A DNA stretch of 64,000 bases from Arcobacter sp. CECT 8983 (GTDB lineage Bacteria; Campylobacterota; Campylobacteria; Campylobacterales; Arcobacteraceae). Position 1 is the first letter of the stretch. The number at the start of each line of letters is the position of its first letter. The position numbers were made by a program, and so were the translations under genes. Shown here piece by piece: positions 1,456 through 52,218 of this stretch. Where the stretch lies: assembly GCF_004118855.1 (NCBI RefSeq), contig NZ_PDKF01000002.1:62001-126000 (forward strand), read 5' to 3'. Under the pieces are notes generated by a model. That model saw only the letters and a program-made list of their open reading frames with translations, was not told the DNA's origin and made no database searches.

Positions 1456-2072
1456 TTACTCTAAAAAATGTATGCAAAAAGTATGATAGAGATTTTGCAT
1501 TGAAAAATGTAAATCTAAATATACAAAAAGGCTCTTTTGTAGCTATTACAGGAGAAAGTGGTAGTGGTAAAACCACTTTACTTTCTATTTTATCAACTCT
1601 TCTTAAACCAAACTCTGGAGAGATTGTTTTTGAAGATACAAAATATAAAGAGATTAAAAATATTGATAAATTTAGACAAGAGAATATTGGTTTTGTTTTT
1701 CAATTTCACTATTTAATAAACTATCTAAATGTAAAAGAGAATATTCTTCTTGCAAAGGAAAAAGCTAGTGATAAAGAGATAGATGAGCTTCTTACTATCT
1801 TAGAAATCCAAAAACTAAAAAACTATTATCCAAATGAGATTTCAGGAGGTCAAAGGCAAAGAGTTGCTATTGCAAGGGCTTTAATAAACCGTCCTAAAGT
1901 GATTTTTGCCGATGAACCAACTGGAAACTTAGACTCAAAAAACTCTTTAAATGTTTTTAATCTTTTTAAAACACTTGCAAATAATGGTGTAACCGTAGTT
2001 GTAGCAACTCACGATAAAGAGTTAGCAAAACTTGCAGATCTTACACTGGAGGTAAAAGATGGACAACTTTAA
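1452..2072 (+). CDS. LolD/MacB-type ABC transporter ATP-binding protein
   Basis: A 206-residue nucleotide-binding subunit. Walker A GESGSGKTTLL lies near residues 35-45, the Q loop in FVFQFHYLI, the ABC signature ISGGQRQRVAIARAL, Walker B VIFADEP and the switch histidine in VVATHDKE. Length and motifs match the LolD/MacB/FtsE-like class that pairs with FtsX-type permeases, so it should power the permease encoded immediately upstream (4-base overlap). The gene downstream overlaps by 14 bases, so translation of the group is probably coupled. The sequence gives no direct clue to the exported substrate. Confidence 0.92.
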   Translation: MITLKNVCKKYDRDFALKNVNLNIQKGSFVAITGESGSGKTTLLSILSTLLKPNSGEIVFEDTKYKEIKNIDKFRQENIGFVFQFHYLINYLNVKENILLAKEKASDKEIDELLTILEIQKLKNYYPNEISGGQRQRVAIARALINRPKVIFADEPTGNLDSKNSLNVFNLFKTLANNGVTVVVATHDKELAKLADLTLEVKDGQL

Positions 2073-3621
2073 TATTTTTATTGAAAAACAGTTTAGAATC
2101 TCTTTACTATTTTTCTTTCTTGGACTATTTTTTGGTATTTTATACTCTATAAATTTACTTGGTGTTTTTATTGATTCAACAACATTAAATCCAGTAAATA
2201 TAAGAAGCTTACATATTTCACTTATGCTTTATGGTTTTATTCCACTTATGCTTTCATACTTGCCTTTTTTACTTATAAATAAAGAAGTGGGCTCTTGTAA
2301 AGATGGGCTTTTTTATTTAAATCTATATACTATCTTTTGGTATATCTTTTTAATCTTTATGATTTCTTCACTACTTTTTGGGAACACAAGAGGTCTAGCT
2401 TTTTATGATTTTCCATATGAATTAAACTTTATTCTAAGTCTTGCTGGAGTTTTTTATATCATTGCTTTATATAAATTCATCAAGCAGTACGGAGTAAAAC
2501 CTTTATGGGTTAAAGTTTCTTTATACATAGTAATGACTGCTCCTTTTGCACTTTTAGTTCTTATGAATCCTACAATTGGTCAAGTTGAAAAAACAGTTAC
2601 TGGACCACATGGAGACAATACACTTGGAATGAGCTTTGCTTTAATTCCTATTTATTTTTTAATCATCAAACTTCTAAGTAAAAATGAGTTTAAAGCTAGA
2701 TGGAATATTCTTTGGATAACTCCACTGTTTTTTTATATTATCTCAGTTTTTTATAGAAGTTTTATAGGGGAGTTAACTTATAACCAAGAGTGGTTTTTTC
2801 AATATCTTACTTTACTTTATGTACCACTTTTATATAGATGGTATCAAGATGCAAAAATTGAAAGGTTTGCAAAACTAGCACTTCTTATTTCTATTGCTTC
2901 TTTTCTTTTTGTAGATATTGAAGGAAATATTCTATTTATTCCAGAAATTAGATGGTTATTTCATAGAAATGATTTAATTGTAGCCCATGCCCATGTTGCT
3001 ATGGGAATTTCTATTTTCTTTATGGTTATCTCTATGTTTGTTTCTCATATCAAAGAGCTTCAAACACTAAAATTTTATAGTTTTTATCTTTTTGGTCTTA
3101 TAGGAATTTTCACTGTTTTATCACTAAGTGGCTTTGTTCAAGCAGGAGTTTTAAAAGCCTCTATTCATAATTTTTGGATTGCAAGAACTATCTTTGGAAG
3201 TTTCGCTTTCCTTTCAGTTTTAGCCTTTGTAAATAGGAAATTCAAACTTACAAACTTACAAAAGTATAACCTTTTTGGCTTTTTAAGTGATGGTTTAGGA
3301 GGAGTGTTTTTAATCCTTCTTGCTAGTTTTATCTATCCAAGTCTAAATTTTAGTTTTGAAGGAAAATATGAATATATCGTTTTTGTTTTTGTAAGTATGA
3401 CTGGACTTATTCACTTCTTAGCTTTAAAGTATAAAGAGTATGAATCAATTCTTACAAAACTAACTGTTTTTATTCGTGTTTTTATTAGTTCCCTATTTTT
3501 CTCACTTTATACAGCAGGAACATTAGAAATTGTTGCACTATTTATATCAGCCTTTGATATTTCTATGGTGGTTTTTTATTTACTTTATTTTTATAAAAAG
3601 GAGCAGTTATGCAAAAATTAG
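2059..3621 (+). CDS. Heme-copper oxidase subunit I-like membrane protein
   Basis: A 520-residue protein with about 12 membrane helices. Three regions resemble cbb3/NO-reductase-type catalytic subunits: helix II RSLHISLMLYGF with His52, a helix VI-like TGPHGDNTLGMSF with His184, and the helix X-like HRNDLIVAHAHVAMG with His302, His310 and His312. In cbb3 enzymes those positions bind the low-spin heme, one CuB ligand and the high-spin heme region. The adjacent His-His pair expected in helix VII (two further CuB ligands) is not seen: residues 216-262 contain no histidine. The protein therefore may bind hemes but lack a normal binuclear centre, or belong to a divergent NO-reductase-like branch. 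No cytochrome c subunit gene lies beside it. It overlaps the ABC ATPase gene before it and the membrane-protein gene after it. Confidence 0.75.
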   Translation: MDNFNIFIEKQFRISLLFFFLGLFFGILYSINLLGVFIDSTTLNPVNIRSLHISLMLYGFIPLMLSYLPFLLINKEVGSCKDGLFYLNLYTIFWYIFLIFMISSLLFGNTRGLAFYDFPYELNFILSLAGVFYIIALYKFIKQYGVKPLWVKVSLYIVMTAPFALLVLMNPTIGQVEKTVTGPHGDNTLGMSFALIPIYFLIIKLLSKNEFKARWNILWITPLFFYIISVFYRSFIGELTYNQEWFFQYLTLLYVPLLYRWYQDAKIERFAKLALLISIASFLFVDIEGNILFIPEIRWLFHRNDLIVAHAHVAMGISIFFMVISMFVSHIKELQTLKFYSFYLFGLIGIFTVLSLSGFVQAGVLKASIHNFWIARTIFGSFAFLSVLAFVNRKFKLTNLQKYNLFGFLSDGLGGVFLILLASFIYPSLNFSFEGKYEYIVFVFVSMTGLIHFLALKYKEYESILTKLTVFIRVFISSLFFSLYTAGTLEIVALFISAFDISMVVFYLLYFYKKEQLCKN

Positions 3622-4583
3622 CCCTAGTATTTTTTATTGCTTTTGAGTTATGTTATTACTTACTTATAGCACAAACAGGTATTGTTGAACATTTAGCTTC
3701 AAATATCTTTGTAATAGCACCACTTCCTATTGGAGGTGTTATTGGTTCAATATTAAGTTTTTATATTAAAACATCAAATAAAAATAAGATATTTTCATTT
3801 TTACTTATTCAATTAATAGTTAGCTTTTTTTATCCAAATTTAAACGCCATACTTCTATTTATCCTTGGAATAAGTGTTGGAGCATTAGCACCATTATTAA
3901 TAAATGAACTAAAAAAAGCTTCAAATATACAATTAGGTTTTGCCCTTGCAATTTCATATGCTTTGGGAACTTTTCTTTTCACATATGATGCTTCAAAAAG
4001 AGGTTCAATTGCAATTATTTTTACTCTAATTGCCCTACTTTCATCACTTTTTTTAAATCTAAAAGAGAATAAGGATTTAACTTCTAATAACTATTCATAC
4101 TCACTATTTGTGATGGTTTTATGGATTTTCCTTGATTCAACTTTGTTTGAAACACTTTCTAGAGATTTAAGTACTTCTATTTGGAGAGATGGTTTTACTT
4201 TAGAGATAATTGTTTTTCATCTAATAGGAGTTGTAAGCGCTTTTTATATAAAAATAGAAAAAACTCAAAAAGAGCTTTTAATTTTAACTCTTTTTGCTCT
4301 TTCTTATCTTCTTTATTTTTTACATGAAGCATTTATTTTATCACTTATTTACCCTTTTGTAATCTCTTTTTACAATGTAGTGATACTTCAAACTATCGTA
4401 AAAAAAGATTTAAAAACACTAGGTATTTATATGGTATTTATAGGTTGGGCTGCATCTGGTGCTGGATTATTTGTAGCTTTAGAAAACTTAACGTATTTTG
4501 TTCCAGTTATATTCTTAGTATGTATAATCAAAATCTTAGCAACACAACAATCACAAAAAAAGGAGTTACCATGGCTAAATTAA
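3609..4583 (+). CDS. Polytopic membrane protein, MFS-like, unknown function
   Basis: A 324-residue, very hydrophobic protein with roughly ten predicted membrane helices and no recognised catalytic motif. The helix pattern (glycine-rich helices PLPIGGVIGSILSF and LLFILGISVGALAPLL) loosely recalls major-facilitator or NnrS-like proteins, but I cannot assign a family. The start ATG overlaps the end of the preceding heme-copper-like gene by 13 bases and is preceded by AAAAAGGAG, a good ribosome-binding site. The next gene (YceI) starts inside its last codons. The tight coupling argues that it works with the heme-copper-like protein and the YceI protein, but its role is unknown. Confidence 0.65.
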   Translation: MQKLALVFFIAFELCYYLLIAQTGIVEHLASNIFVIAPLPIGGVIGSILSFYIKTSNKNKIFSFLLIQLIVSFFYPNLNAILLFILGISVGALAPLLINELKKASNIQLGFALAISYALGTFLFTYDASKRGSIAIIFTLIALLSSLFLNLKENKDLTSNNYSYSLFVMVLWIFLDSTLFETLSRDLSTSIWRDGFTLEIIVFHLIGVVSAFYIKIEKTQKELLILTLFALSYLLYFLHEAFILSLIYPFVISFYNVVILQTIVKKDLKTLGIYMVFIGWAASGAGLFVALENLTYFVPVIFLVCIIKILATQQSQKKELPWLN

Positions 4584-5104
4584 TATTTATTTTACTATTT
4601 AGTGGGCTTTTATGCGTAGTAAATGCGCAAGATTTGAAATTCGTAGATGGAAAAATAAAAGCCCATACTGAGGTTTTTGGAGATAGTAGTATTAATCCAT
4701 ATACTAAAGATATTTATTCACATTTATCCATTGATAATAGTATTGATTCCCTAAAAGGAACTATCTCTTTAAGTACTTTTTCACTTCATAGTGACAATGA
4801 AAAAAGAGATTTACATATGTATGAAACTTTACACTCTAAAGAGTTTCCTCATATCTCTTTTAGAATTGCTTCTATAAAGAAAATTGATGATGTTTTTCTA
4901 ATAAAAGGATTTCTTTTCTTAAATGGTTTGGAAAAAGAAGTTAGTTCAATAGCAAAAATAGAAGATAAAAATGAGCATTTAGTTTTAGACGGAAACTTCT
5001 CTATTAAATTAACATCATTTAATCTTAAACCACCAACAATGTTTTTTCTAACGGTTAGAGATCAAATAGATATCTCTTATCATCTAGATTATATAAAAGG
5101 ATAG
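4571..5104 (+). CDS. YceI-family periplasmic protein
   Basis: A 177-residue protein with an N-terminal signal peptide (MAKLIFILLFSGLLCVVNAQ) and a YceI-like lipocalin fold signature: repeated beta-strand segments and the block YETLHSKEFPHISFRI, typical of YceI proteins that hold isoprenoid or quinone-like lipids in a hydrophobic pocket. The start at 4571 was chosen because AAAAGGAG lies just before it and a signal peptide follows at once; the longer open frame from 4445 only reads antisense-like residues inside the previous gene. It overlaps the membrane-protein gene by 13 bases. YceI proteins next to heme-copper or cytochrome b genes suggest quinone or isoprenoid handling; that is inference. 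Confidence 0.82.
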   Translation: MAKLIFILLFSGLLCVVNAQDLKFVDGKIKAHTEVFGDSSINPYTKDIYSHLSIDNSIDSLKGTISLSTFSLHSDNEKRDLHMYETLHSKEFPHISFRIASIKKIDDVFLIKGFLFLNGLEKEVSSIAKIEDKNEHLVLDGNFSIKLTSFNLKPPTMFFLTVRDQIDISYHLDYIKG

Positions 5105-5108: not shown

Positions 5109-5558
5109 ATGAAAAAAATTATTCTACTTCTTTCTTTGGTACTTTGTGCTTTTTCACAAGAACTACTTGTAAATGAAAAAATTTCTAACTTCTCTTTGCC
5201 TAATCAGTTTGATGAGAAAAAGACAATTGATGAAAATGTGCAAACAATCATTGTCTCTTTTGAAAAAGGAACAGGAAAAGAGGTAAATGAATTTTTAGAG
5301 CAAAAAAATCCAGATTTTTTAAAAGAACACCATGCTGTTTTTATAGCAAATATTTCAGGAATGCCTATGTTTATAACAAAAATGTTCGCTTTGCCTAAGA
5401 TGAAAAACTATAAACATGAAATTCTTTTAATCTATGATGAAAAAGATGATAGATTTAAAGCAAAAGATGGAATGTCAACTTTATATGAACTTGAAAATGG
5501 AGTTATAAAAAGTATAAAGTTTATTTCAAAAGATGATTTAGAAAAAGTTTTTCTATGA
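5109..5558 (+). CDS. Exported small protein with thioredoxin-like fold, unknown
   Basis: A 149-residue protein with a clear signal peptide (MKKIILLLSLVLCAFSQE). The mature part reads KISNFSLPNQFDEKKTI, then TIIVSFEKGTGKEV, then FALPKMKNYKHEILLIYDEKD, an order that recalls the strand-helix pattern of thioredoxin/peroxiredoxin-like domains, but there is no cysteine in the mature protein, so redox catalysis of the usual kind is excluded. I do not recognise a named family. It is only 4 bases after the YceI gene and overlaps the following phosphoesterase start (ATGA), so it belongs to the same operon and probably acts in the periplasm. Confidence 0.65.
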   Translation: MKKIILLLSLVLCAFSQELLVNEKISNFSLPNQFDEKKTIDENVQTIIVSFEKGTGKEVNEFLEQKNPDFLKEHHAVFIANISGMPMFITKMFALPKMKNYKHEILLIYDEKDDRFKAKDGMSTLYELENGVIKSIKFISKDDLEKVFL

Positions 5559-6268
5559 AACCAACAAAGTTAGAAATAAAAAATCTTAAAGTAAAAGCTA
5601 AGAATTTGCAGGGTTTGCAAATTCTTCACTTAAGTGACTTACATATAAACAAAAAAACAAAAATAGAAGATATTAAAAAATTAGTAAGCTTTTGCAATGA
5701 CATAGAATATGACTTTTTAGCTCTTACAGGAGATATTATTGATTGTAAAGCAGACAAAATAATACCTCAGCTTGAAGCTTTAAATCTTTTGAAAAAGGTA
5801 TTTTATATAAGTGGTAACCATGATATATTTTATGGACTAAAGAGATTAAAAACTCTTTTAACAAACTTTACTTTTCTAGATAATAAAACCATTTTTATAA
5901 AATACCAAAACAAAGAGATTGCCCTTGCTGGAATAAGTGATAGATTCTCAAAATTTTTTAAAATACAAAGAGAAGAAAAAAAAGTCTTTGAATTTTTAAA
6001 AAACAATGAAGACTCAATCTTACTTGCCCATCAACCAAAAGATTACTCTTTAGCAGTAAATTCAAATACGAAACTTTTCTTATGTGGACATACCCATGGA
6101 GGTCAAGTTTTTCCCTTTCACTATTTTGTAAGGCTTTTCCAACCTTTTTTAGCAGGAATTTTTTATAAAAAAAACACTTGTGTTTATGTAAACAAAGGTT
6201 TAGGAACTTGGGGTATTGATTTTAGATATAAAGCAGATAGTGAAATAACTCTTTTAAAGTTATGTTAA
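5555..6268 (+). CDS. Calcineurin-like metallophosphoesterase (YkuE/YaeI type)
   Basis: A 237-residue protein with all metallophosphoesterase motifs: HLSDLHI (residues 25-31), TGDIID, GNHD, LAHQPKD and CGHTHGGQVFP. These supply the di-metal ligands of the family. Such enzymes (YkuE, YaeI, UDP-diacylglucosamine hydrolase relatives) cleave phosphodiester bonds, often in cell-envelope lipids. No obvious signal peptide is present. It is the last gene of the operon that starts at 358, overlapping the previous gene by 4 bases. Family is certain; substrate is not shown by the sequence. Confidence 0.88.
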   Translation: MKPTKLEIKNLKVKAKNLQGLQILHLSDLHINKKTKIEDIKKLVSFCNDIEYDFLALTGDIIDCKADKIIPQLEALNLLKKVFYISGNHDIFYGLKRLKTLLTNFTFLDNKTIFIKYQNKEIALAGISDRFSKFFKIQREEKKVFEFLKNNEDSILLAHQPKDYSLAVNSNTKLFLCGHTHGGQVFPFHYFVRLFQPFLAGIFYKKNTCVYVNKGLGTWGIDFRYKADSEITLLKLC

Positions 6269-6377: not shown

Positions 6378-7988
6378 ATGAAAAAAATCTCGCAATACAA
6401 GCTTATAATTTATATATCTTTACTATTTACAGTTTTCTACAATTTCTCATTTTTTAGGAATTTTTCTTTAGCATATAGTTTTACTGGCATTAACATACTT
6501 TATACAATAAGTATATTTTTCACTCTGTTTTTATTTATAAGTTTTGTATTATCTTTACTTAGTTCAAGATATTATATAAAACCCTTTTTGATTATTCTAA
6601 TAATGGTTTCATCTTTTACCGCTTATTTTATGGATACATATAATGTAGTTATTGATAAAGAAATGATAAGAAATACTTTAGAGACAAATCTAAATGAAAG
6701 TCTTGATTTATTTAGTTCTCAATTAGTTTTATATGTGGTATTTTTAGGAATAATTCCAAGTTTTTTAGTTTATAAAACAAATATTGATTATGGTTCATTT
6801 AAGAAAGAGAGTTTTAGAAAAATAAAAACTCTAATATTAATTTTACTTCTTATTGTTATTACACTTTTTAGTACAAGTAAATTTTACACCTCTTTTTTTA
6901 GAGAACATAAAACACTTAAATATTATGCAAATCCTACATACTGGATGTTTGCCATAGTAAATTATACAAAGAAGACATATTTTACAGGTAAAATTATTGT
7001 TAAAAAAACAGGAGATGATGCACTTATTGATGAAACACCAGAACATAAAAAAGAATTAATTGTAATGGTAGTAGGGGAAGCAACTAGAGCAGATAGATTC
7101 TCTTTAAATGGATACAAAAGAGATACAAACCCACTTTTAGAAAAACAAGAAGTTTATAACTTCTCTAATATGTCATCATGTGGAACCTCTACTGCATACT
7201 CTGTCCCTTGTATGTTTTCTAAATTTACAAGAGATAACTATAGTCATAGTAAAGCCGTATCAAATGAAAATTTACTTGATGTTTTAAAACATACAAAAGA
7301 TGTAAATATTTTATGGAGAGATAATAACTCAGATTCAAAAGGTGTTGCAGTAAGAGTAAAATATGAGGATTATAAATCTAAAGATTTAAATACTATTTGT
7401 GAAAATGGTGAATGTAGGGATGAAGGAATGCTAGTAGGTTTAGATAAAATTATCAAAGATAGTAAAAGTGAAGATATTTTTATTATATTACATCAAATGG
7501 GAAATCATGGACCAGCATACTATAAAAGATATCCTAAAAGATTTGAAAAATTCAAACCTGTTTGTAAAACAAATCAGTTAGAAAAATGTACAAAAGAAGA
7601 GATTACAAATGCTTATGATAATGCCATTTTACATACAGATTATTTTTTATCTAAAGTAATAGATTTTCTAAAACCTTATTCAAATAAATATGATACAGCT
7701 ATGTTTTATATGAGTGATCATGGAGAAAGTCTTGGAGAAAATGGAATATATTTACATGGTATGCCTTATTTTATGGCTCCAACAGAACAAACACATGTTG
7801 CCTCACTTATGTGGTTTGGTAATAGTATGAAAAAACAATTGGATTTAAATAAATTAAATAAAATCAAAAATAATAGTTTTTCACAAGATAATCTATTTCA
7901 TACAATTCTTGGATTATTTGAAGTACAAACAGATGTTTACAATAAAAACCTTGATATATTATCAACTATTAGAAAAGAGCAAAAATGA
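6378..7988 (+). CDS. eptA: Lipid A phosphoethanolamine transferase (EptA/MCR family)
   Basis: A 536-residue inner-membrane enzyme with five N-terminal membrane helices (residues about 8-170) and a periplasmic sulfatase-fold domain. Active-site blocks are visible: VVGEATRADRFSLNGY (Glu234), SSCGTSTAYSVPCMF with the acceptor threonine Thr270, HQMGNHGPAYYKRYP and MSDHGESLGENGIYLHG carrying the metal-binding Asp/His. The enzyme moves phosphoethanolamine from phosphatidylethanolamine to lipid A (in Campylobacter also to FlgG), lowering surface charge and polymyxin binding. Paired cysteines in the periplasmic domain fit the family's disulfides. Diacylglycerol, the by-product, is handled by the kinase encoded next with a 4-base overlap, which strongly supports the assignment. 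Confidence 0.93.
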   Translation: MKKISQYKLIIYISLLFTVFYNFSFFRNFSLAYSFTGINILYTISIFFTLFLFISFVLSLLSSRYYIKPFLIILIMVSSFTAYFMDTYNVVIDKEMIRNTLETNLNESLDLFSSQLVLYVVFLGIIPSFLVYKTNIDYGSFKKESFRKIKTLILILLLIVITLFSTSKFYTSFFREHKTLKYYANPTYWMFAIVNYTKKTYFTGKIIVKKTGDDALIDETPEHKKELIVMVVGEATRADRFSLNGYKRDTNPLLEKQEVYNFSNMSSCGTSTAYSVPCMFSKFTRDNYSHSKAVSNENLLDVLKHTKDVNILWRDNNSDSKGVAVRVKYEDYKSKDLNTICENGECRDEGMLVGLDKIIKDSKSEDIFIILHQMGNHGPAYYKRYPKRFEKFKPVCKTNQLEKCTKEEITNAYDNAILHTDYFLSKVIDFLKPYSNKYDTAMFYMSDHGESLGENGIYLHGMPYFMAPTEQTHVASLMWFGNSMKKQLDLNKLNKIKNNSFSQDNLFHTILGLFEVQTDVYNKNLDILSTIRKEQK

Positions 7989-8338
7989 GAAATCAACCAA
8001 AATACAATTTTATTAAAAATACTTCATATGCAGTTAATGGATTAAAAGATTTAATAAAAAGTGAAAGTTCATTTAAAATTGAACTTCTCTTTTCTATTAT
8101 TCTCTTACCTATTATAATTTTTATTGATCAAACACTTACAAATAAACTACTTTTATTTATAACTTTTAGTGGCGTTTTATTAGCAGAAATAATAAATAGT
8201 GCAATTGAAAGAACAGTTGATTTAGTTACATTAGAATTTCATCATATGGCAAAAAGAGCAAAAGATGTTGGAAGTGCTATTGTTTTTATAAGCATCACTA
8301 TTTGTACAATCACTTGGTTAATCATTTTATTAAATTAA
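7985..8338 (+). CDS. dgkA: Diacylglycerol kinase
   Basis: A 117-residue, three-helix membrane protein with the DgkA signature AEIINSAIERTVDLVTLEFHHMAKRAKDVGSAIV, containing the catalytic glutamate and the ExxNxAIE core. It phosphorylates diacylglycerol to phosphatidic acid at the inner membrane. Its start codon overlaps the eptA stop (ATGA), so it recycles the diacylglycerol released by phosphoethanolamine transfer. Length is normal for the family. Confidence 0.93.
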   Translation: MRNQPKYNFIKNTSYAVNGLKDLIKSESSFKIELLFSIILLPIIIFIDQTLTNKLLLFITFSGVLLAEIINSAIERTVDLVTLEFHHMAKRAKDVGSAIVFISITICTITWLIILLN

Positions 8339-9312: not shown

Positions 9313-9395
9313 GTGAAATCCTATTTAAAGATTATATCTCTTTCTTTTTATCCTAAAATAAAATAATCGTTCATTTTATATTCATATTTTTGTAC

Positions 9396-9401
9396 TATAA
9401 T
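9396..9401 (+). promoter_or_regulatory. -10 box six bases before the response-regulator ATG
   Basis: A perfect TATAAT lies at 9396-9401 and the ATG begins at 9408, leaving six bases between. A transcript starting at the usual distance would begin on or next to the start codon, so the mRNA may be leaderless. No Shine-Dalgarno sequence is present. Confidence 0.55.
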
Positions 9402-9407
9402 TTAATT

Positions 9408-10076
9408 ATGAAAATTTTAATTATAGAAGATGATGAAAAAATTATTAACTTTTTGAAAAAAGGTCTTGAAGAAGAATCTTATAGTGTTGATTACTCTTTG
9501 AATGGAGATGAGGGTATTTACTTAGCTAGTGTGAATACTTATGATTTAATACTTCTTGATATCATGCTTCCTATAAAAGATGGTATTGAAGTATGTAAAA
9601 CATTAAGAAACAATTCTATTTACACGCCTATTATAATGCTTACAGCAAAAGACTCTATAGAAGACAAAATAAAAGGTTTAGATATTGGAGCAAATGATTA
9701 TTTAGCTAAACCTTTTTCATTTAGTGAATTACTTGCTAGAATAAGAGTACAACTAAGGGCTACTAATCAAAATCAAACTACTCTAAAATTAGCTGATTTA
9801 GAATTAGATTTACTAACTAAAACAGCAAAAAGAGGTGAAGATATGATAAACCTTACAGCAAAAGAGTTCGCACTTTTAGAGTATCTAATAAAAAACCAAA
9901 ACAAAGTTTTATCAGAAAGTGTTATTAGTTCTTCACTAAGTAATATGGATGATATGAACATGAGTAATATTGTAAATGTATATATCTATAGATTAAGAAA
10001 TAAAATTGATAAACCATATGAAAAGAAACTTATCAAAACAATACGAGGCTTAGGGTTTAAAATAAGTGATGACTAA
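9408..10076 (+). CDS. OmpR-family response regulator
   Basis: A 222-residue two-domain regulator. The receiver domain starts MKILIIEDDEKII, with phospho-acceptor Asp in LILLDIMLP (about residue 51), Thr in MLTAKD and Lys in YLAKPFSF. The C-terminal winged helix-turn-helix has INLTAKEFALLEYLIKNQNKVLS and ends KTIRGLGFKI, typical of OmpR/PhoB DNA-binding domains. The ATG at 9408 is preferred because the protein then begins exactly at the first receiver strand; the TTG at 9390 would place the codons across the -10 box. The sensor kinase gene overlaps its end by 8 bases. The genes downstream (HD-GYP and cytochrome b561) suggest an envelope or redox signal, as inference. Confidence 0.93.
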   Translation: MKILIIEDDEKIINFLKKGLEEESYSVDYSLNGDEGIYLASVNTYDLILLDIMLPIKDGIEVCKTLRNNSIYTPIIMLTAKDSIEDKIKGLDIGANDYLAKPFSFSELLARIRVQLRATNQNQTTLKLADLELDLLTKTAKRGEDMINLTAKEFALLEYLIKNQNKVLSESVISSSLSNMDDMNMSNIVNVYIYRLRNKIDKPYEKKLIKTIRGLGFKISDD

Positions 10077-11439
10077 TCTATCTATTAAAAGAAAACTTCT
10101 TATTTATAATATCTTTATTCAAGTATTAATCTTAATGCTTTTTTCATTTTCTATTTATAAAACCTTAGAAGTGTCATCAAAGGATAAGTTAGAAGCTACA
10201 TTAAAAGTAATTTTACTTGATATTACAGATGATATTATAGAGCATAAAAAAGTGATTAATACAAGAGAATTTGATGAAGAAAAAGAGTATAAATTTGAAC
10301 CTTTATATATAAGACTTTTAAAAGAAGAAGATAAGTACAAAGAGATTAAAAATAACAACTTTCCAAGTGATATAATAGTTAATAATAAATACTTAAAAAC
10401 GCTTATTTTAAATCAAATCAAATTTGAGTATAAAAAGCACTATATAATTAGTAGATTAAAAATCCAAATGGATAAAAACTATTATGTTCTTGAAGTTGCC
10501 ACAAACTTTTCTGCTATAAACTCTACACTAGAAAACCTAGTTTATATTTTGATGTTTATAGTTCCTATTATTCTAATTTTATCTATTATTGGTGGTTACT
10601 TCTTAATTTATAAATCTTTTTTACCTATAGAAAAACTACTTCAAAATTTAAAAAGTATTAATGCAAGTGATTTATCAAAAAGGTTAGAATCAAAAAATAA
10701 AAATGATGAAATAGATTTATTGTCTCAAGAAATAAATAACCTTTTGCAAAGACTTGAAATCTCTTTTGAAAAGATTTCACAGTTTAGTTCTGATGCTTCC
10801 CATGAATTAAAAACTCCCCTTACAATTATTAGGGGAGAAATAGAAATAGCTTTAAGAAAAGATAGAGAATCAAGTGAATATAAAAAAACCTTATCAAACT
10901 GTTTAGATGAGCTTATTACCATACAACAAACTATTGATGATTTACTATTTTTAGCTAAAAATGAACATGAAGTTTTAGAAAAAAAAGAGGAAGTTATATA
11001 CTTAGATGAAGTTTCCCTTGAAGCTTACAAAGAGATGCAAGCTTTTGCAAAACTAAAAAATATCAACCTTGAATGTCAAATAAAAGAGCCTCTACAAATA
11101 AAAGGTCACCATAAACTTTTAAAAATAGCCATAAAAAATATTTTAAAAAATGCCATTACTTTTAGCCACAAAAACTCAACGGTGATTATTTCAAACTATC
11201 AAGATGAAGATAATCAAGTTATTTGTATAGAAGATAAAGGCATTGGTATCTCAAAAAAAGACCAAGAAAAAATCTTCGATAAGTTTTATAGAACAGATAA
11301 AAGTAGAAATAAAGAGTCTGGTGGTACAGGACTTGGAATGTCAATTGTTGAAAAAATTATAAAGATTCATAAAGCACAGATAAAACTTCAAAGTGAAGAG
11401 AATCTTGGAACAAAAGTATATTTTATATTTAGAGGTTAA
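10069..11439 (+). CDS. Sensor histidine kinase
   Basis: A 456-457-residue membrane kinase. Two membrane helices (about residues 12-32 and 157-180) flank a roughly 120-residue periplasmic sensor; then come a HAMP segment, the HisKA box SSDASHELKTPLTIIRGEIEIAL with His near residue 245, and a HATPase domain with NILKNAITFS (N box), DKGIGIS (G1), FYRTDKSR (F box) and GGTGLGMSIV (G2). Starts at GTG 10066 or ATG 10069 differ by one residue. It overlaps the regulator gene by 8 bases, so it is the cognate kinase. The periplasmic domain has no motif that tells the signal. Confidence 0.93.
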   Translation: MTNLSIKRKLLIYNIFIQVLILMLFSFSIYKTLEVSSKDKLEATLKVILLDITDDIIEHKKVINTREFDEEKEYKFEPLYIRLLKEEDKYKEIKNNNFPSDIIVNNKYLKTLILNQIKFEYKKHYIISRLKIQMDKNYYVLEVATNFSAINSTLENLVYILMFIVPIILILSIIGGYFLIYKSFLPIEKLLQNLKSINASDLSKRLESKNKNDEIDLLSQEINNLLQRLEISFEKISQFSSDASHELKTPLTIIRGEIEIALRKDRESSEYKKTLSNCLDELITIQQTIDDLLFLAKNEHEVLEKKEEVIYLDEVSLEAYKEMQAFAKLKNINLECQIKEPLQIKGHHKLLKIAIKNILKNAITFSHKNSTVIISNYQDEDNQVICIEDKGIGISKKDQEKIFDKFYRTDKSRNKESGGTGLGMSIVEKIIKIHKAQIKLQSEENLGTKVYFIFRG

Positions 11440-13024: not shown

Positions 13025-13687
13025 ATGAAATCATATATTTGGACACTCCCTACTAGAGTTTTTCACTGGCTATTTGCCTCTTTTATGTTAATTGTTTTTT
13101 TAACTGATGATGATAAACTTTTAAAATACCATGCTATTGTAGGTTATTCAATTTTAGTTCTTATATTTTTTAGACTTTTTTGGGGATACTTTGGACCAAA
13201 ATACTCTAAATTTAAAGACTTCAATGCAAACAAAAAAAGTATCAAAGAGTTTATGAAAAATCTATTTAGCAAAAATCAAAACTACATAGGACATAACCCT
13301 TTAGCTTCACTTGTTATGCTTGGAATGTTTATTTTCTCATTACTAGCTATCTTTACAGGTATCGTTACTTATGGAGTTGAAGAACATAAAGGTATTTTGT
13401 CTTTTTTAAATAGCTCATTTTTCAAAAGCTTTGATGATATCCACGAATTTTTTGCAAATTTTATTATCTTTTTAGTTGTACTTCATTTAGCTGGCATTTT
13501 TATTGATAAAGTTTTACATGCAAAACATGAAACACTAAACTCAATTTTCACAGGATATAAAAAATTTGATACAAAAGAAGATATAAAATTAAATATTTTT
13601 CAAAAACTACTAGCCTTCTTGTTTTCTATAGCTTTAATTATATTTACTTTTTATAATCTCTTTTTTAATAGTATATTTATAAATTGA
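13025..13687 (+). CDS. Cytochrome b561-type di-heme membrane protein
   Basis: A 220-residue protein with four core membrane helices plus a C-terminal hydrophobic segment. Histidines expected for two b hemes are seen in TRVFHWLFA (His14), YHAIVGYS, DDIHEFFAN and LVVLHLAGI, matching bacterial cytochrome b561 / thiosulfate reductase b-type subunits that move electrons from quinol to periplasmic partners. The start codon is 1 base after the HD-GYP stop. No separate cytochrome c partner is encoded beside it. Operon membership with a two-component system suggests that its expression follows an envelope or redox signal. Confidence 0.85.
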   Translation: MKSYIWTLPTRVFHWLFASFMLIVFLTDDDKLLKYHAIVGYSILVLIFFRLFWGYFGPKYSKFKDFNANKKSIKEFMKNLFSKNQNYIGHNPLASLVMLGMFIFSLLAIFTGIVTYGVEEHKGILSFLNSSFFKSFDDIHEFFANFIIFLVVLHLAGIFIDKVLHAKHETLNSIFTGYKKFDTKEDIKLNIFQKLLAFLFSIALIIFTFYNLFFNSIFIN

Positions 13688-13690
13688 AAA

Positions 13691-13708
13691 GGTAAATTAT
13701 TTTTTACC
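13691..13708 (+). terminator. Weak terminator-like hairpin after the cytochrome b561 gene
   Basis: GGTAAA (13691-13696) and TTTACC (13703-13708) pair with a T-rich six-base loop, followed by ATTTTAATTT. The adjacent A-run and T-run can lengthen the stem. It closes the four-gene operon and may protect the following leader from read-through. Confidence 0.45.
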
Positions 13709-13750
13709 ATTTTAATTTAAACTAAAGTTACATTTGCTAATATTACATTT

Positions 13751-13800
13751 CAGGTTTGTGGTACAAACTGACATCTTGACCTTATCTTTCAAGTGCTGTC
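13751..13800 (+). promoter_or_regulatory. Two consecutive hairpins in the leader of fdhT
   Basis: The 190-base region between 13688 and the fdhT ATG holds two neighbouring inverted repeats. The first is GTTTGT (13754-13759) with ACAAAC (13763-13768), extended by CA/TG pairs. The second is GACA (13770-13773) plus CTTGA (13775-13779) pairing with TCAAG (13789-13793) plus TGTC (13797-13800) across a nine-base loop. They lie about 80-130 bases before the start codon. The structure is seen; a regulatory function is inference, and no known riboswitch class is recognised. Confidence 0.4.
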
Positions 13801-13877
13801 TTACTTTTTTATGGTTATTAATAAACTATTTTAAAACCATACTTTTCAAAACTATTTTATCATTGTTAGGAGAATGC

Positions 13878-15074
13878 ATGAACTTTTGGCAAAATTTCAA
13901 AAGAGATTTTTTAGTTAAATTTTGGGCTCCAATTCCTGCTGTTATTGCACTAGGAATTTTATCGGCTTATTATTTTGGACTTACAGGAACTTACTGGGCT
14001 GTTACAGGTGAGTTTACTAGATGGGGTGGACATGTTTTAGAAGCCTTTGGTGTAGATTTATCTACTTGGGGATATTACAAAATTATGAATATGGATGGTA
14101 ATATTTTTACAAGAGTAGATGGTGTGATGATTATTGGTATGTTTGCAGGTTGTATTGCAGCAGCATTTTGGGGAAATAATGTAAAACTTAGAATGCCAGC
14201 AAGTAATATTAGAATTTTTCAAGCATTAATTGGTGGTATTATTGCAGGATTTGGTGCAAGACTTGGTATGGGTTGTAACCTTGCAAGTTTCTTTACTGGT
14301 ATTCCTCAATTTACATTTCATGCTTGGATGTTTACTATTGCTATGATTTTAGGGGTTTATTTAGGAGCAAAGTTCTCTTTATTACCTTTTTTCCAATCTA
14401 AAATCAAGCTTCAAAAAGTATCTTGCACTAAACCTCTAAAAAAAGATGAGTCTAAAGTAAAAAGTCTATTTACTCTTGGTTCTTTTGCTTTTATTGCAAT
14501 TATTATTTGGGCTTTATATTTAATTTTTGCACAAGGAAGTACAAAACTTGGTATGGCTATGTTATTTGGTAGTGCATTTGGTCTTGCAATTGCAAAAGCT
14601 CAAATTTGTTTTACATCTGCATTTAGAGATATCTTTACAACAGGAAGAAGTGAATTAGCAAAAGCAATTGTTATTGGTATGGCTGTTTCAACTATTGGTG
14701 TATTTTCTTATATTATGATTGGTCAACCTCCAAAAATTATGTGGGCTGGACCAAATGCTATAATTGGTGGTATTTTATTTGGTTTTGGTATTGTATTAGC
14801 AGGTGGTTGTGAATGTGGTTGGATGTATAGAGCAGTTGAAGGTCAAGTTCATTTCTGGGTTGTTGGTATTGGAAATGTAATTGGTGCAACTTTACTTGCA
14901 TTTGTTTGGGATGATTTATCTTTAAGCTTAGCTACAAGCTGGCCAAAAATTAATCTACTTGAAGTATTTGGAAATTATGGTGGTCTATTCTTAAATTATG
15001 GATTACTAATTTTACTTTTTGCACTAATTTTAGTATTAGAAAAAAGATATTTAAATAAATCAAAAAATAGATAA
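13878..15074 (+). CDS. fdhT: YeeE/YedE-family transporter, FdhT-like
   Basis: A 398-residue polytopic protein with about ten membrane helices and the YeeE/YedE signatures GARLGMGCNLASFFTGIP and LAGGCECGWMYRAVEGQVHFW, each with a conserved cysteine that faces the pore in thiosulfate transporters of this family. With the small TusA-like gene 9 bases downstream it forms the pair known in Campylobacter jejuni as fdhT-fdhU, required for selenium-dependent formate dehydrogenase. The ATG at 13878 is preferred: TAGGAG precedes it closely and the protein starts MNFWQNFKRDF; the longer frame from 13734 runs through a structured leader with unrelated residues. Substrate (selenium or sulfur species) is inferred from the family. 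Confidence 0.82.
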   Translation: MNFWQNFKRDFLVKFWAPIPAVIALGILSAYYFGLTGTYWAVTGEFTRWGGHVLEAFGVDLSTWGYYKIMNMDGNIFTRVDGVMIIGMFAGCIAAAFWGNNVKLRMPASNIRIFQALIGGIIAGFGARLGMGCNLASFFTGIPQFTFHAWMFTIAMILGVYLGAKFSLLPFFQSKIKLQKVSCTKPLKKDESKVKSLFTLGSFAFIAIIIWALYLIFAQGSTKLGMAMLFGSAFGLAIAKAQICFTSAFRDIFTTGRSELAKAIVIGMAVSTIGVFSYIMIGQPPKIMWAGPNAIIGGILFGFGIVLAGGCECGWMYRAVEGQVHFWVVGIGNVIGATLLAFVWDDLSLSLATSWPKINLLEVFGNYGGLFLNYGLLILLFALILVLEKRYLNKSKNR

Positions 15075-43221: not shown

Positions 43222-43698
43222 ATGGAAAAAAGATACATAGAAAAATTTTTTGATAATATGAAGCAAAAAGAGGAATATGATATATTTAATATCTCATTGC
43301 CTATTACCTTAATTTATAAACATAATTACAATAAAAATGAACAACTTTTTAAACAAAAGTATAATTTGATTCATTCCGATGTAGATGTTTTAGCAGCTTT
43401 ATATTTCAACGGCAAACAGTTGTCCCCTACAGAACTTTATTCTGCAATAATATTTTCTTCAGGTGGAATGACGAAAGTTCTAAAAAAATTAAAAGCTTTA
43501 GGATATATTTCTAGGCAAGAAAATCCAAATGATAAAAGAAGTCAATTAGTTAAGCTAGAGAAAAAAGGTGAAGAAGTCTTACTTGAGTGTTTAGATGATC
43601 TTATTGAGCAAAAAAACGAGACATATAAATCACTAACAAAAGAAGAGATGAACAGTTTAAAGAAAATCTTGAAGAAGATTTCAATAAACTTATCTTAA
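43222..43698 (+). CDS. MarR-family transcriptional regulator
   Basis: A 158-residue winged-helix regulator. The DNA-binding part reads LSPTELYSAIIFSSGGMTKVLKKLKALGYISRQENPNDKRSQLVKLEKKGEEVL, the MarR recognition helix and wing with DxR. Flanking helices form the dimer domain. Divergent from the efflux operon across an 18-bp palindrome, so it probably represses the pump and itself. Its stop overlaps the end of ureG by 9 bases. Confidence 0.9.
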   Translation: MEKRYIEKFFDNMKQKEEYDIFNISLPITLIYKHNYNKNEQLFKQKYNLIHSDVDVLAALYFNGKQLSPTELYSAIIFSSGGMTKVLKKLKALGYISRQENPNDKRSQLVKLEKKGEEVLLECLDDLIEQKNETYKSLTKEEMNSLKKILKKISINLS

Positions 43699-44277
43699 TG
43701 CTTCAATCCAATTAATAAGCCTTTCTATACTTTTAGGTTCTTTTTTAGAGATAAAAACAGATGGTTTATTTTTTCTGTTTTTTTCCACATCATTTTTAAA
43801 CTCAGCTAGATCTACATTAACATATTCACAAAGATCAATTTTATTTGTAACAAGTAGATCACAAAACAGTAAACCAGCACCTTTTTTTCTTGGAATATCT
43901 GCTCCTTGGGCAACATCAATTACATAAAGATAATAATCAATTAATTCATATGAAAAAGTTGCGCTTAGATTATCTCCCCCACTTTCAATAAATATAAATT
44001 CTGGATTATATTTCTCTTCTAACTCTTCAATTGCTTTTTGATTCATAGAAATATCATCTCTAATTGCTGTATGTGGACATCCACCAGTTTCTACACCAAT
44101 TATTTGATTGTCATCTAAATCAAGTTTACTTTTTAAATAGTTTGCATCTTCTGTTGTATAAATATCATTAGTAACAATTCCTAATGAGTATTTATCTTTT
44201 AAAAGATTTGTTAAAGTCTCAATAATAGAAGTTTTTCCACTTCCTACTGGTCCTGCAATACCAATTTTAATTGCCAT
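43690..44277 (-). CDS. ureG: Urease accessory GTPase UreG
   Basis: A 195-residue SIMIBI GTPase that delivers nickel to apo-urease. P-loop GPVGSGKTSIIETL (residues 8-21), VTNDIYTTEDA, the nickel-binding Cys-Pro-His in GVETGGCPHTAIRDD, and GTPase motifs FIESGGDN and VTNKIDL are all present. Last gene of the urease operon, 11 bases after ureF. It ends convergent with the marR-like gene; no ureD/ureH follows, unlike the order in Helicobacter pylori. Confidence 0.97.
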   Translation of the reverse strand: MAIKIGIAGPVGSGKTSIIETLTNLLKDKYSLGIVTNDIYTTEDANYLKSKLDLDDNQIIGVETGGCPHTAIRDDISMNQKAIEELEEKYNPEFIFIESGGDNLSATFSYELIDYYLYVIDVAQGADIPRKKGAGLLFCDLLVTNKIDLCEYVNVDLAEFKNDVEKNRKNKPSVFISKKEPKSIERLINWIEALR

Positions 44278-44288
44278 TTGTTTTCCTT

Positions 44289-44978
44289 TTATGTAACGAA
44301 CATTTTTGGTTCTAAATTTAAGTGAGAGAAAATAACCTCTTCAAATAAAGGGTTAAAGTTACTCATATTTTTAGAACTATTTTTTATTTTTTCTTCTATT
44401 CTTTCATCAAAACTAAAAAGTAATTGTTGTATTTCACTAGGTTTTATTCTTGAAATTTTTAAACTTGTACTTGCAATATTTATTAAATTCTTTTTACACC
44501 ATAAAAGAAGAAAAGTATCTGCATCAAGACCTAACTCATAGGCATAAGAGCTTAAAATAAATAGTTCATTTCCGTAAGCTTCTTTATTTTTTACTTTTTC
44601 AAAATAGTTTTTTACAATTTTGTTTTTTATATCAAAATCTATATGCTTTAGGTAGTTTTCACCCAAATCTTTTGAAGCTTTTGCCCATTGGTAGCTTAGC
44701 ATTGAAGCAAATTTTTTATCCTCTTTTAGAATATGATTTAGTTTTTCTTTCTTTAATAGAGCAAATACTTTTTTTACTACAGTAAACTCCATCTTTTGGT
44801 ATTGGTCTTCAATTATATTTTCAAGGAAGTTTTTTAGGCTTTCTTTGTCATTTACAAAACCTAAAACAATATGTGGTTCTAGCCCAAATGAATGAACAAA
44901 AGCCCCAGATGGAAAAGCTCCATCAAGGAGTTGTAAAAATCTACTTAGTGCTTTAGTGGGTGTGATGTGCATTTCCAT
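44289..44978 (-). CDS. ureF: Urease accessory protein UreF
   Basis: A 229-residue all-helical UreF. Family landmarks are RFLQLLDGAFPSGAFVHSFGLEP near the N-terminus and SYAYELGLDADTFLLLWCKKNLINIASTSLKISRI in the middle. UreF joins UreG and UreD in the urease activation complex. Its start lies inside the end of ureE (26-base overlap): ATG at 44978, with a second ATG two codons later that could also be used. Confidence 0.93.
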   Translation of the reverse strand: MEMHITPTKALSRFLQLLDGAFPSGAFVHSFGLEPHIVLGFVNDKESLKNFLENIIEDQYQKMEFTVVKKVFALLKKEKLNHILKEDKKFASMLSYQWAKASKDLGENYLKHIDFDIKNKIVKNYFEKVKNKEAYGNELFILSSYAYELGLDADTFLLLWCKKNLINIASTSLKISRIKPSEIQQLLFSFDERIEEKIKNSSKNMSNFNPLFEEVIFSHLNLEPKMFVT

Positions 44979-45387
44979 TTGGTTTAAATAAAACTTTACC
45001 TTTTTTTACTGTTACACTACTATTTTCTTTGCAAGAATTAATTATATCAGTAGTTGAAATATCTTCTAAAATAGTAATTTTATAATCTTCTATACAAATA
45101 GGTTGGTGTCTATTGCCTATTTCATATGCAATTCTAGCAAAGGTAATATGGTCATTAAATGTTAAAGTGTAAATATTATCCTCTGATTTAGAAACTTTGA
45201 TTTTATATCCATCTTCACAAACTAAAATATCATCTTCATGAAGGTGAGTGTATTTTGCTTTTACTATAAACTCTTTACCCTCTTGAGTAATAGCACTTAA
45301 ATTAGGTTTTTGCATATCAAACCAATCTAAAAGTACACTATCATCTGCTTGGATATCTTTTTTTATTTCAATTGCTTTTTTTATCAT
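44953..45387 (-). CDS. ureE: Urease accessory metallochaperone UreE
   Basis: A 144-residue nickel chaperone with the N-terminal peptide-binding domain and C-terminal metal-binding domain (ARIAYEIGNRHQPICIEDYKITILED with the conserved dimer-interface histidine in NRHQP). The tail ends GNAHHTH, a short histidine cluster for nickel. It lies 8 bases after ureC and overlaps ureF by 26 bases. Confidence 0.93.
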   Translation of the reverse strand: MIKKAIEIKKDIQADDSVLLDWFDMQKPNLSAITQEGKEFIVKAKYTHLHEDDILVCEDGYKIKVSKSEDNIYTLTFNDHITFARIAYEIGNRHQPICIEDYKITILEDISTTDIINSCKENSSVTVKKGKVLFKPNGNAHHTH

Positions 45388-45395
45388 TTGTAGTC

Positions 45396-47102
45396 CTAAA
45401 ATAGAAAATATTTTTTAGCCATTGGTAACTCTTCTTGGAAAGATGATTTTATAATCTCACCATTAACTTTTACATCATAAGTTTCAGGGTCAACTTCAAT
45501 ATCCCCAATAAAGTCATTTAACTTCATATCTTTTTTACCTATATTTCTAGTGTTTTTAACTGCAAGCATAGATTTATTTGTATTCATCTTTTCTACTAAA
45601 CCATTGTCTAATGATAGTTTAGAAACAAATAGTGCACTTGTATTAGCTGCTGCTTTACCCAACTTGCCAAACATTGGTCTATACATATTTGGTTCAGGGG
45701 TTGGAATAGAGGCATTTGAATCTCCCATCATAGCTAAAGCTATAAATCCACCTTTTATGATAAGTTCTGGTTTTACTCCAAAAAATGCCGGAGTCCAAAG
45801 AACTAAATCTGCCATTTTACCAACTTCTACACTTCCTACATATTCATCAATACCACAAGCAATAGCTGGGTTTATAGTATATTTAGCAACAAATCTTTTG
45901 ATTCTTTCATTATCACTTAGATTATCATCACCTTCAAGTGCACCTCTTTGTTTTTTCATAGAGTCTGCTACTTGCCAAGTTCTTGTTATAACCTCACCAA
46001 CTCTTCCCATAGCTTGAGAATCACTACTTGTAATTGATATTGCTCCAATATCATGTAAAACATCTTCTGCTGCAATAGTTTTACCTCTAATTCTAGATTC
46101 TGCAAAACTTACATCTTCTGGAATTTTAGCACTTAAATGGTGACAAACCATAAGCATATCAAGGTGTTCTTCTATTGTATTTTTAGTATAAGGTAATGTT
46201 GGGTTTGTACTTGATGGTAAGATATTAGCAAGTCCAGCAACTTTCATAATATCAGGTGCATGACCACCTCCAGCTCCTTCAGAGTGGAAAGTATGGATAG
46301 TTCTTCCATCAAATGCATTTACAGTGTTATCTACAAAACCTGATTCATTTAAAGTATCTGTGTGAATTGCAACTTGAACATCAAAATCATCTGCAACTTT
46401 TAAACAAGTATCAATAGCATTTGGAGTTGTTCCCCAATCCTCATGAAGTTTTAGTCCCATAGCTCCAGCTTCAATTTGCACTTTTAAAGCTTCATAATTT
46501 GAACTATTTCCTTTACCCATAAAACCAAAATTTAATGGCAAGTCATCAACTGCTTCAATCATTTTATGGATATTGAATTCCCCTGGAGTACAAGTTGTAG
46601 CATTTGTTCCTGTGTTTGGACCAGTTCCCCCACCAATCATAGTTGTAACACCACTAGCTAGTGCTTCATCTATTTGACCAGGACTTATAAAGTGAATGTG
46701 TGAATCAATTCCACCAGCAGTGATGATTTTACCCTCTGCTGATAAAATCTCAGTATTTGCACCTATTTCTAAACCCTCAGTTATATTATCACAGTTGTAT
46801 GGATTTCCAGATTTTCCAATAGCAGAAATCTTTCCATCTTTTATACCAATATCCCCTTTTACAATACCAGTATAATCAATAATCACAGCATTTGTGATGA
46901 TTAAATCAGCAGTATCAACAGCAAGGGGAGATTGGCTCATTCCATCTCTAATAGTTTTACCACCACCAAATTTTGATTCTTCACCATAAGTTGTATAATC
47001 TTTTTCAATCTTTGCTACTAAAGAGGTATCAGCTAATCTAAATCTATCACCAGTAGTTGGTCCATACATTGAGGCATATTTTGCTTTAGAAATTTTATAC
47101 AT
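45396..47102 (-). CDS. ureC: Urease alpha (catalytic) subunit
   Basis: A 568-residue di-nickel amidohydrolase that splits urea into ammonia and carbamate. Active-site residues are all present: His135 and His137 ([10 protein letters not shown]), carbamylated Lys218 (GLKLHEDWG), His247 (AIHTDT), His273 ([14 protein letters not shown]), and the catalytic flap MVCHHLS with His321-His322, followed by the arginine- and aspartate-bearing [12 protein letters not shown]. In Helicobacter this subunit is called UreB. It is 18 bases after the fused gamma-beta gene. Intact and of normal length. Confidence 0.98.
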
Positions 47103-47120
47103 GGTAATTCCTTTCAGTCA

Positions 47121-47804
47121 TCATACTCTACTCCCTATAAAATCTGCTAAGTTTTTCATAGCTTTTTCTTTAGTCTCTTTTTCATCTAAGTAACCATTTA
47201 CAAGCCCATTAAATCCTGCAATATATCTTTTCCCTTTATATGGAACTACTTCAATCTCTTTTTTAGAACCTGGCTCAAATCTAACAGAAGTTCCACTTGG
47301 AATATTTAATCTTTGCCCATAAGCTTTTTCTCTCTCAAATTCTAAAAAGGCATTTGTTTCAAAAAAGTGATAGTGTGAACCAACTTGAATAGGTCTATCT
47401 CCTACATTTTCAACTTCTATTGTAGTTACAGGTGCATTTTCATTTAGTTCAATCTCACCCTCATCTACGAAGTATTCCCCTGGAGTTACATCTGTTTTTG
47501 TTTCAGGAATTGGATTATGTACAGTTACTAGTTTTGTTCCATCGTCAAAAGTAGCTTCTGTTTGAACCATATGTATCATAGATGCAACACCTGGCATAAC
47601 ATCATCAGCTTTTAAAACTTTAGTTGCATCAACCATAAGTTGGGCAACACTTTTACCATCTCTAGCTCCTTCAAGTATAAAAGAACTGATAATTGCAGAA
47701 GCTTCAGGAAAGTTAAGTTTTAGTCCTCTCTCTTTTCTTTCCCAAGCTAGCTTAGAAGCTGTATAAATTATCAATTTTTCTTGTTCACGGTTTGTCAAAA
47801 ACAT
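47121..47804 (-). CDS. ureA: Urease fused gamma-beta subunit
   Basis: A 227-residue fusion. Residues 1-100 are the gamma subunit ([35 protein letters not shown] ... [32 protein letters not shown]); residues about 105-227 are beta ([19 protein letters not shown] ... [43 protein letters not shown]). The same fusion is found in Helicobacter UreA and in Arcobacter, whereas most bacteria have separate ureA and ureB. First urease gene; AAAAAGGAG precedes its ATG. Confidence 0.97.
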
Positions 47805-47830
47805 CAGCTATCTCCTTTTTATCTTAAAAA

Positions 47831-47836
47831 ATTCTA
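47831..47836 (-). promoter_or_regulatory. Possible -10 element for the urease operon
   Basis: On the minus strand TAGAAT (47836-47831) in TTGATAGAATTTT lies 27 bases before the ureA ATG, inside the 85-base gap after the malate synthase gene. The urease genes could therefore be transcribed both from here and by read-through from the permease operon. Confidence 0.4.
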
Positions 47837-50049: not shown

Positions 50050-50061
50050 TTTTTCCCTTTT

Positions 50062-52217: not shown

Positions 52218-52218
52218 A

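Follow-up and report, generated by a model that had tools for sequence, protein, structure and literature searches.

A predicted heme-copper oxidase-fold protein lacking the histidines of a normal CuB site in a conserved envelope gene cassette of Campylobacterota

The window analyzed here is a 64,000-nucleotide stretch of Arcobacter sp. CECT 8983 (contig NZ_PDKF01000002.1), and its gene at positions 2059–3621 encodes a 520-residue membrane protein with the predicted fold of the heme-copper oxidase (HCO) superfamily. The histidines expected to hold the hemes are retained in this protein and its relatives, while the sequence does not contain the full set of three histidines needed for a normal CuB site. 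The gene is under purifying selection and resides in a conserved cassette with genes for an ABC permease and ATPase, a protein with a predicted MFS fold, and a YceI-family lipocalin. We tentatively propose, with less than even confidence, that this HCO homologue without a non-heme metal site is a diheme electron-transfer protein that serves the lipid or quinone cargo of the YceI protein, by analogy with the LcoA and BcnA proteins described below. The features needed to follow the argument are as follows.

358–1455, + strand: ABC permease, MacB/LolE-like (MacB_PCD + FtsX), 365 aa, first gene of the cassette (PF12704, E 4.8e-17; PF02687, E 7.6e-16).
1452–2072, + strand: LolD/FtsE-type ABC ATPase, 206 aa (TIGR02211, E 2.1e-58, below the equivalog cut-off).
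2059–3621, + strand: predicted HCO-fold protein without a CuB/FeB site, 520 aa; residues 1–396 form the 12-helix HCO core and residues 397–520 four extra helices.
2212–2214, + strand: His52 in helix II, low-spin heme ligand position, aligned with the heme b His of CcoN, NorB and COX1 (80/80 listed loci; 37/37 sequences reaching the position).
2608–2616, + strand: His184-Gly185-Asp186 of GPHGDNTLGMS, invariant (38/38); Asp186 aligns with the metal-ligand His in helix VI of CcoN and, in 2/3 MAFFT modes, with that of NOR and COX1.
2749–2766, + strand: residues 231–236, the expected site of the helix VII His-His pair, with an invariant Arg233 there instead.
2962–2994, + strand: HRNDLIVAHAH with His302, His310 (high-spin heme position) and His312 (low-spin heme position), in 80/80 listed loci and 38/38 sequences; gapless against helix X of CcoN, NOR and COX1.
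3609–4583, + strand: small 12-helix protein of predicted MFS fold without a Pfam family, 324 aa (model pLDDT 91.3).
4571–5104, + strand: divergent YceI-family lipocalin, 177 aa (PF04264, E 2.1e-12); the ATG at 4571 was chosen as start by a ribosome-binding-like site.
5109–5558, + strand: small protein with a leader-like N-terminus, 149 aa, without a family; present in 54/80 listed loci within 4.5 kb.
5555–6268, + strand: calcineurin-like metallophosphoesterase, 237 aa, often adjoining the cassette in Arcobacteraceae.

The open reading frame at 2059–3621 is intact, begins inside the end of the LolD-type ATPase gene (2072), and overlaps at its 3' end the gene for the polytopic MFS-fold protein, which starts at 3609. 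The encoded protein contains histidines at positions 52, 184, 302, 310, 312, 330, 370, and 452. The Pfam COX1 model matches the protein with an E of 7.5e-4 and 18.9 bits, against a gathering cut-off of 34.8 bits, and an NCBIfam search returned zero matches. COX1 is matched by 18/18 aligned orthologues (E up to 10, best E 5.6e-12), suggesting that the resemblance is not due to chance. A phmmer search identified no relatives of solved structure, and a profile search for such relatives returned only two meaningless matches to Nta1p (E 1). The fold was approached by way of an AlphaFold2 model, which used 18 sequences as input, is cofactor-free, and has a mean pLDDT of 82 and a pTM of 0.79. A Foldseek search with this model recovered a cbb3 oxidase (E 1.2e-6) and an NO reductase (E 7.1e-4). 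Superposition using VIA-align gave a Z of 26.6 with cNOR 4xyd (375 residues, rmsd 3.9) and 25.5 with cbb3 9g6b (371 residues, rmsd 4.9), a gap little above the tie margin, and further Z values of 26.4 with NorB 3o0r and 25.4 with CcoN 3mk7. The structural match spans residues 1–396, which form twelve helices, and residues 397–520 form four more that are poorly conserved in a set of 38 sequences. As modeled, the 520-residue protein has the HCO superfamily fold of the 12-helix subunit I type, which bears out the original prediction of an HCO-like protein. The model is weak in the helix VI region, where residues 176–182 have a pLDDT <50. Helix I begins at residue 3, indicating that an N-terminal periplasmic domain is absent.

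The ligand positions were followed in two sets of relatives, comprising 80 loci that are among the matches listed, of 106 relatives found by a motif-based scan, and the 38 sequences mentioned above, which were obtained without motif selection (pattern-independent) and include one that is cut and does not reach His52. Nine HCOs (CcoN, NorB-type, qNOR, COX1) from the source and related genomes served as references for alignment. Helices II and X align gaplessly at their histidines to CcoN, NorB-type, qNOR, and COX1 proteins, and the predicted ligands of the low-spin heme (His52, His312) and high-spin heme (His310) are all invariant, consistent with the earlier claim that these heme-ligand-type histidines are kept. 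His302, present in 80/80 listed loci, aligns with a His that is common to all nine reference HCOs, and Arg49 in helix II is kept in 78/80.

According to the portion of PMC3413370 consulted, the HCO signature is a 'histidine sextet' that includes three His ligands for CuB. A helix VII His-His pair is found in every reference HCO, and its counterpart is absent from the HCO-like family. The prediction that residues 216–262 of the window protein contain no histidine was confirmed, and the absence extends across the family, as a His-His pair in helix VII was found in none of the 80 listed loci and none of the 38 pattern-independent sequences. MAFFT (three modes) places Phe231-Tyr232 at the position of the pair, and counting back from Glu244-Trp245 places Phe235-Ile236 there. 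Position 232 is a single His in 15/80 listed loci and 4/38 pattern-independent sequences, and His is not among the common residues at positions 231, 235, and 236 in the 80 listed loci. For helix VI, it had been suggested that one ligand histidine, His184, is kept; this residue is indeed invariant, but it lies two residues before Asp186, which takes the metal-ligand position in most alignments. Asp186, not His184, occupies this position by hhalign and in all three MAFFT modes when compared with CcoN, and G-INS-i and E-INS-i place it there against NOR and COX1 as well. The L-INS-i mode leaves helix VI of NOR and COX1 unaligned with the family, and the hhalign alignments of helix VI with NOR and mixed profiles are not clean. 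The hhalign reference sets contained 2, 6, and 9 sequences, and scores were uneven from subgroup to subgroup because of this small size. Judging from these alignments, every sequence seen lacks at least two of the three metal-ligand histidines and probably lacks all three. Neither the three-His CuB set of catalytic O2 reductases nor the three-His FeB set of NO reductases was found.

Comparison of the gene with seven close relatives gave dN/dS values of 0.059 to 0.164. These low values, together with the finding that helix VI is conserved more strongly than any other helix, indicate that the gene is under purifying selection and is not decaying. The side chains H184, D186, R233, Y241, E244, W245, H302, H310, H312, and H452 are invariant (38/38), as is H52 (37/37), and the pocket segment G182–S192 is unchanged in 18/18 sequences. 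In the 38-sequence set, invariant columns are most frequent in helix VI (12/22), followed by helix VIII (11/24) and helix X (8/23), suggesting that the place that formerly held the metal matters most and that the distal pocket has a job. The count of Lys and Arg side chains (7 outside vs 21 inside) fits an N-in topology (positive-inside). Invariant core positions number 67/211 in the periplasmic half vs 26/185 in the cytoplasmic half; this bias is partly expected, because the hemes lie near the periplasmic face in all HCOs.

The HCO-like gene is present in 32/100 related genomes and in 60/397 Campylobacterota genomes. One of these 60 copies (G431:C1:1208640-1210190) is broken by eight in-frame stops, indicating that the family can be lost, and in a few others one or two stops fall at the extreme ends of the frame that was matched. 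The motif-based scan covered bacteria and archaea with one genome per species and, being built on short motifs, favors close kin over distant relatives in other phyla. The listed titles are Campylobacterota-type (Malaciobacter, Arcobacter, Aliarcobacter, Halarcobacter, Poseidonibacter, Sulfurospirillum, Sulfurimonas, Sulfuricurvum, Sulfurovum, Nitratifractor, and others), and two say merely 'bacterium' and 'Proteobacteria bacterium'. Among the matches listed, the family shows strict conservation across many marine and sulfur-cycling bacteria and was found here only in Campylobacterota. Spread by plasmids was also considered and rejected, as a tblastn search of 72,556 plasmids at E 0.01 gave zero matches.

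In a maximum-likelihood tree with the nine reference HCOs, the family forms one clade (100/100) apart from NOR, CcoN, and COX1, and NOR forms its own clade (100/100). The family stem measures ~5 changes per site in this tree of long stems and few outgroups, and the deeper branching order is unsafe because of the long branches. The HCO-like family stands as its own branch within the superfamily. The source genome also has ordinary genes for NorB and for the cbb3 subunit CcoN, suggesting that the HCO-like protein adds to normal respiration and does not replace it. In the literature on CuB-less HCOs, covered with subscription journals mostly outside scope, no paper on the HCO-like family or its cassette was recognized. 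The extra CcoN of Sulfurimonas, which is genuine and clusters with Aquificales oxidases according to the part of PMC4584964 available, was considered as a possible member, and this grouping does not identify it with the HCO-like protein.

Among the cassette partners, the permease gave profile matches to MacB, LolF, and LolE chains, and the permease and ATPase together resemble the MacB and LolCDE exporters; unlike these systems, the cassette has a single permease and no MacA-like gene, and its scores fall below the equivalog cut-offs. The model of the polytopic protein superimposes on EfpA with a Z of 24.7 (301/324 residues, rmsd 3.3), whereas a search of 21 members against Pfam, with E values up to 1 admitted, gave no match to an MFS family; on the strength of the model, this partner has the MFS fold. 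The YceI profile matches the polyisoprenoid-binding structures 1y0g (E. coli YceI) and 1wub (TT1927b). The cassette YceI is far weaker against Pfam (E 3.0e-12) than the best YceI of the genome (5.7e-49), and three other YceI genes are located away from the cassette. For the 149-aa protein, Pfam offered nothing credible, and a PDB profile search gave one match (E 0.49).

Conservation of the cassette was assessed in the 54/80 listed loci that are well flanked (at least 3.5 kb on both sides). The permease, ATPase, MFS-fold, and YceI genes are all found on the same strand within 4.5 kb in 49/54 of these loci. Among the exceptions, YceI was not called in L062 and L075, the ATPase was missed in L080 and L090 (in the latter, the gene caller made the HCO gene too long), and in L104 the YceI and HCO genes are separated by four others. 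Overlapping junctions are the rule, with 51/52 for ATPase-HCO, 48/50 for HCO-MFS, and 42/52 for MFS-YceI. In the window, the overlaps of the HCO-like gene with the ATPase gene of the FtsX/LolD-type ABC pair and with the polytopic gene, predicted along with a YceI neighbor, are real. A few loci are ordered MFS-YceI-permease-ATPase-HCO, indicating that the module can be rearranged yet stays together. The original prediction also stated that the gene has no cytochrome c subunit partner, and indeed no CXXCH motif occurs in the seven proteins encoded between 358 and 6268. Beyond the genes listed above, no further gene cluster recurs with the cassette across the phylum (most neighbors are without annotation), and a promoter scan gave fewer matches than in shuffles.

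Several other genes in the window and in related loci were recorded. Directly downstream of the cassette region are genes for an EptA-type phosphoethanolamine transferase and a diacylglycerol kinase (6378–8338), and beyond one opposite-strand gene lie an OmpR-type response regulator and a histidine kinase (9390–11439), and a regulator-kinase pair likewise comes after the cassette in many loci of Arcobacteraceae. At 13025–13687 lies a gene for an ordinary prokaryotic cytochrome b561 (PF01292), followed by one for a Sulf_transp (PF04143) protein (13025–15074 for the two together); cytochrome b561 relatives occur in 6/80 listed cassette loci, one of them within 4.5 kb. A metallo-beta-lactamase-fold protein is found in 23/80 listed loci, mostly in Sulfuricurvum and Sulfurovum kin (L072:9977-10891 is PF12706). 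Sulfurospirillum arcachonense has a second LolD-like ATPase gene (L055:2966-3643) ~3 kb upstream of the cassette ATPase. A hemerythrin-domain protein (PF01814) is encoded ~7 kb upstream of another cassette (L021:4040-5189), beside a regulator that looks Crp/Fnr-like by eye. Inspection of the ORF list of the window by eye suggested putative urease genes followed by putative genes for allantoin/purine breakdown, malate synthase, and a urea/amide-type ABC importer (43690–60372).

The HCO-like protein shares with NorB (cNOR 4xyd, 3o0r) the 12-helix fold, the heme-ligand histidines of helices II and X, and the helix X pattern H-x7-H-x-H; unlike NorB, it is without the FeB histidines and a NorC/cytochrome c partner, carries four extra C-terminal helices, and falls on a separate branch. 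Similarly, it shares the fold with CcoN (9g6b, 3mk7), and the two can be aligned at the helix VI motif G-x-N-x-x-G and at the E-G turn that precedes helix X; in contrast to CcoN, its CuB histidines are replaced (Asp186; Phe/Tyr or Phe/Ile) and its neighbors are not ccoO or ccoP. An accessory role in NO reduction was also examined and rejected, as the presence of the cassette has no significant link to the norB family (19/32 cassette genomes vs 29/68 others, Fisher p 0.14) or to nosZ (14/32 vs 26/68, p 0.66) in these tests, which are rough because the 100 genomes are mutually related. The possibility first raised, that the protein is a divergent NO-reductase-like enzyme, thus finds no support: two or three of the metal histidines are missing, the family branches apart from NOR, and it does not track norB or nosZ. 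Consequently, the label of O2 or NO reductase should not be given to this protein. The usual reduction of O2 or NO in HCOs is two-metal chemistry, and with the second metal lost this chemistry is not expected, leaving a candidate b-type electron carrier. The other possibility raised, a heme- or quinone-related membrane protein that has lost oxygen chemistry, is plausible for an HCO relative without a normal metal site.

A precedent for such a carrier is offered by BcnA, a YceI lipocalin whose gene is, in the part of PMC9113575 consulted, linked and sometimes fused to that of LcoA, a diheme b-type membrane cytochrome (cytochrome b561). The same account describes BcnA as quenching lipid peroxyl radicals and suggests LcoA as the protein that returns the BcnA-bound quinone to its reduced state. 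In the literature searched, BcnA and LcoA are the sole described case in which a YceI lipocalin is paired with a membrane protein of b type. The likeness is that a YceI gene is found in linkage with one that encodes a multi-helix membrane protein of b-heme type, with the heme predicted in the present case; unlike LcoA, which has another fold, the protein studied here has the HCO fold and is accompanied by ABC and MFS-fold partners. Judged by the ligands it retains, the HCO-like protein would hold two b-type hemes, one between His52 and His312 and the other on His310, where the sixth position would be either open or newly filled. By analogy with LcoA, it would pass electrons from the quinone pool across the membrane to the periplasmic face, with a presumed direction and quinol donor, and may there reduce a lipid or quinone cargo of the YceI lipocalin, both the cargo and the contact with YceI being guessed from the LcoA/BcnA precedent. 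Loading or movement of this cargo could fall to the ABC pair of MacB/Lol type together with the MFS-fold protein. Against the analogy are the divergence of the cassette YceI and the fact that neighborhood does not prove contact. Moreover, since the window contains an ordinary cytochrome b561 and the genome three other YceI genes, the LcoA/BcnA role may be filled elsewhere.

Other functions for the conserved pocket have to be weighed against electron transfer. The protein might be a catalyst with a rebuilt site, in which heme b3 and a pocket of His184, Asp186, Arg233, Tyr241, and Glu244 reduce NO, peroxide, or another small oxidant, or bind a metal by other ligands. The invariance of the G182–S192 segment and of these side chains and Trp245 favors this view, as does the putative NO dismutase, a qNOR variant in which one metal-ligand His is replaced by Asn (PMC3413370, as far as the source was available). 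That enzyme is likewise an HCO-superfamily protein with an altered ligand set, but it loses one His only and stays within the qNORs, whereas both histidines of the helix VII pair are gone from the HCO-like family. Furthermore, the Glu244-Trp245 pair is not new, as an acid followed by an aromatic residue is also found near this position in CcoN, NOR, and COX1, and the lack of co-occurrence with norB or nosZ also weighs against a rebuilt catalyst, which we consider unlikely. The near-universal overlap of the ATPase and HCO genes and the lack of an electron-donor cytochrome c subunit would also suit a heme-based gas or redox sensor, in which O2, NO, or CO binds the open heme and the signal passes to gate the FtsX-type permease. 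This reading leaves the MFS-fold and YceI partners unexplained, no sensory or output domain was found, and the four C-terminal helices are poorly conserved, making a sensor quite unlikely.

Retention of the heme-ligand positions with loss of the metal site, next to a permease of the broad MacB type, could alternatively reflect a heme-handling protein that keeps or displays heme b within the membrane so that the ABC pair can export or deliver it, with HrtBA as a possible comparison. YceI structures are described with isoprenoid lipids and not heme in the portion of PMC9113575 seen, and the lack of any additional gene cluster recurring with the cassette across the phylum gives no help to heme handling, which appears very unlikely. 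Since the model is cofactor-free and the presence of heme is predicted, it is also conceivable that the fold is a heme-free lipid or carrier scaffold in which the histidines serve otherwise. The three heme-ligand histidines in 80/80 listed loci, together with Arg49 and His302, argue against a purely structural role, and we regard it as highly improbable.

The electron-transfer reading, if true, would mean that the HCO fold is able to act simply as an electron carrier, which is otherwise the part of cytochrome b561 and proteins like it. HCOs are commonly defined by the six-histidine signature, and this large, strictly conserved family appears to keep the heme half of it and drop the metal half. 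The same reading would caution against labeling genes of this kind as NO reductases or terminal oxidases. In addition, the cassette places three envelope proteins without an assigned role in one shared setting. It is possible, though doubtful, that a metal-stripped reductase fold has been re-used as a trans-membrane electron conduit for a periplasmic lipid carrier, and that a whole branch of the superfamily, known to date from Campylobacterota, may carry out envelope lipid or quinone redox reactions together with ABC and MFS-fold partners.
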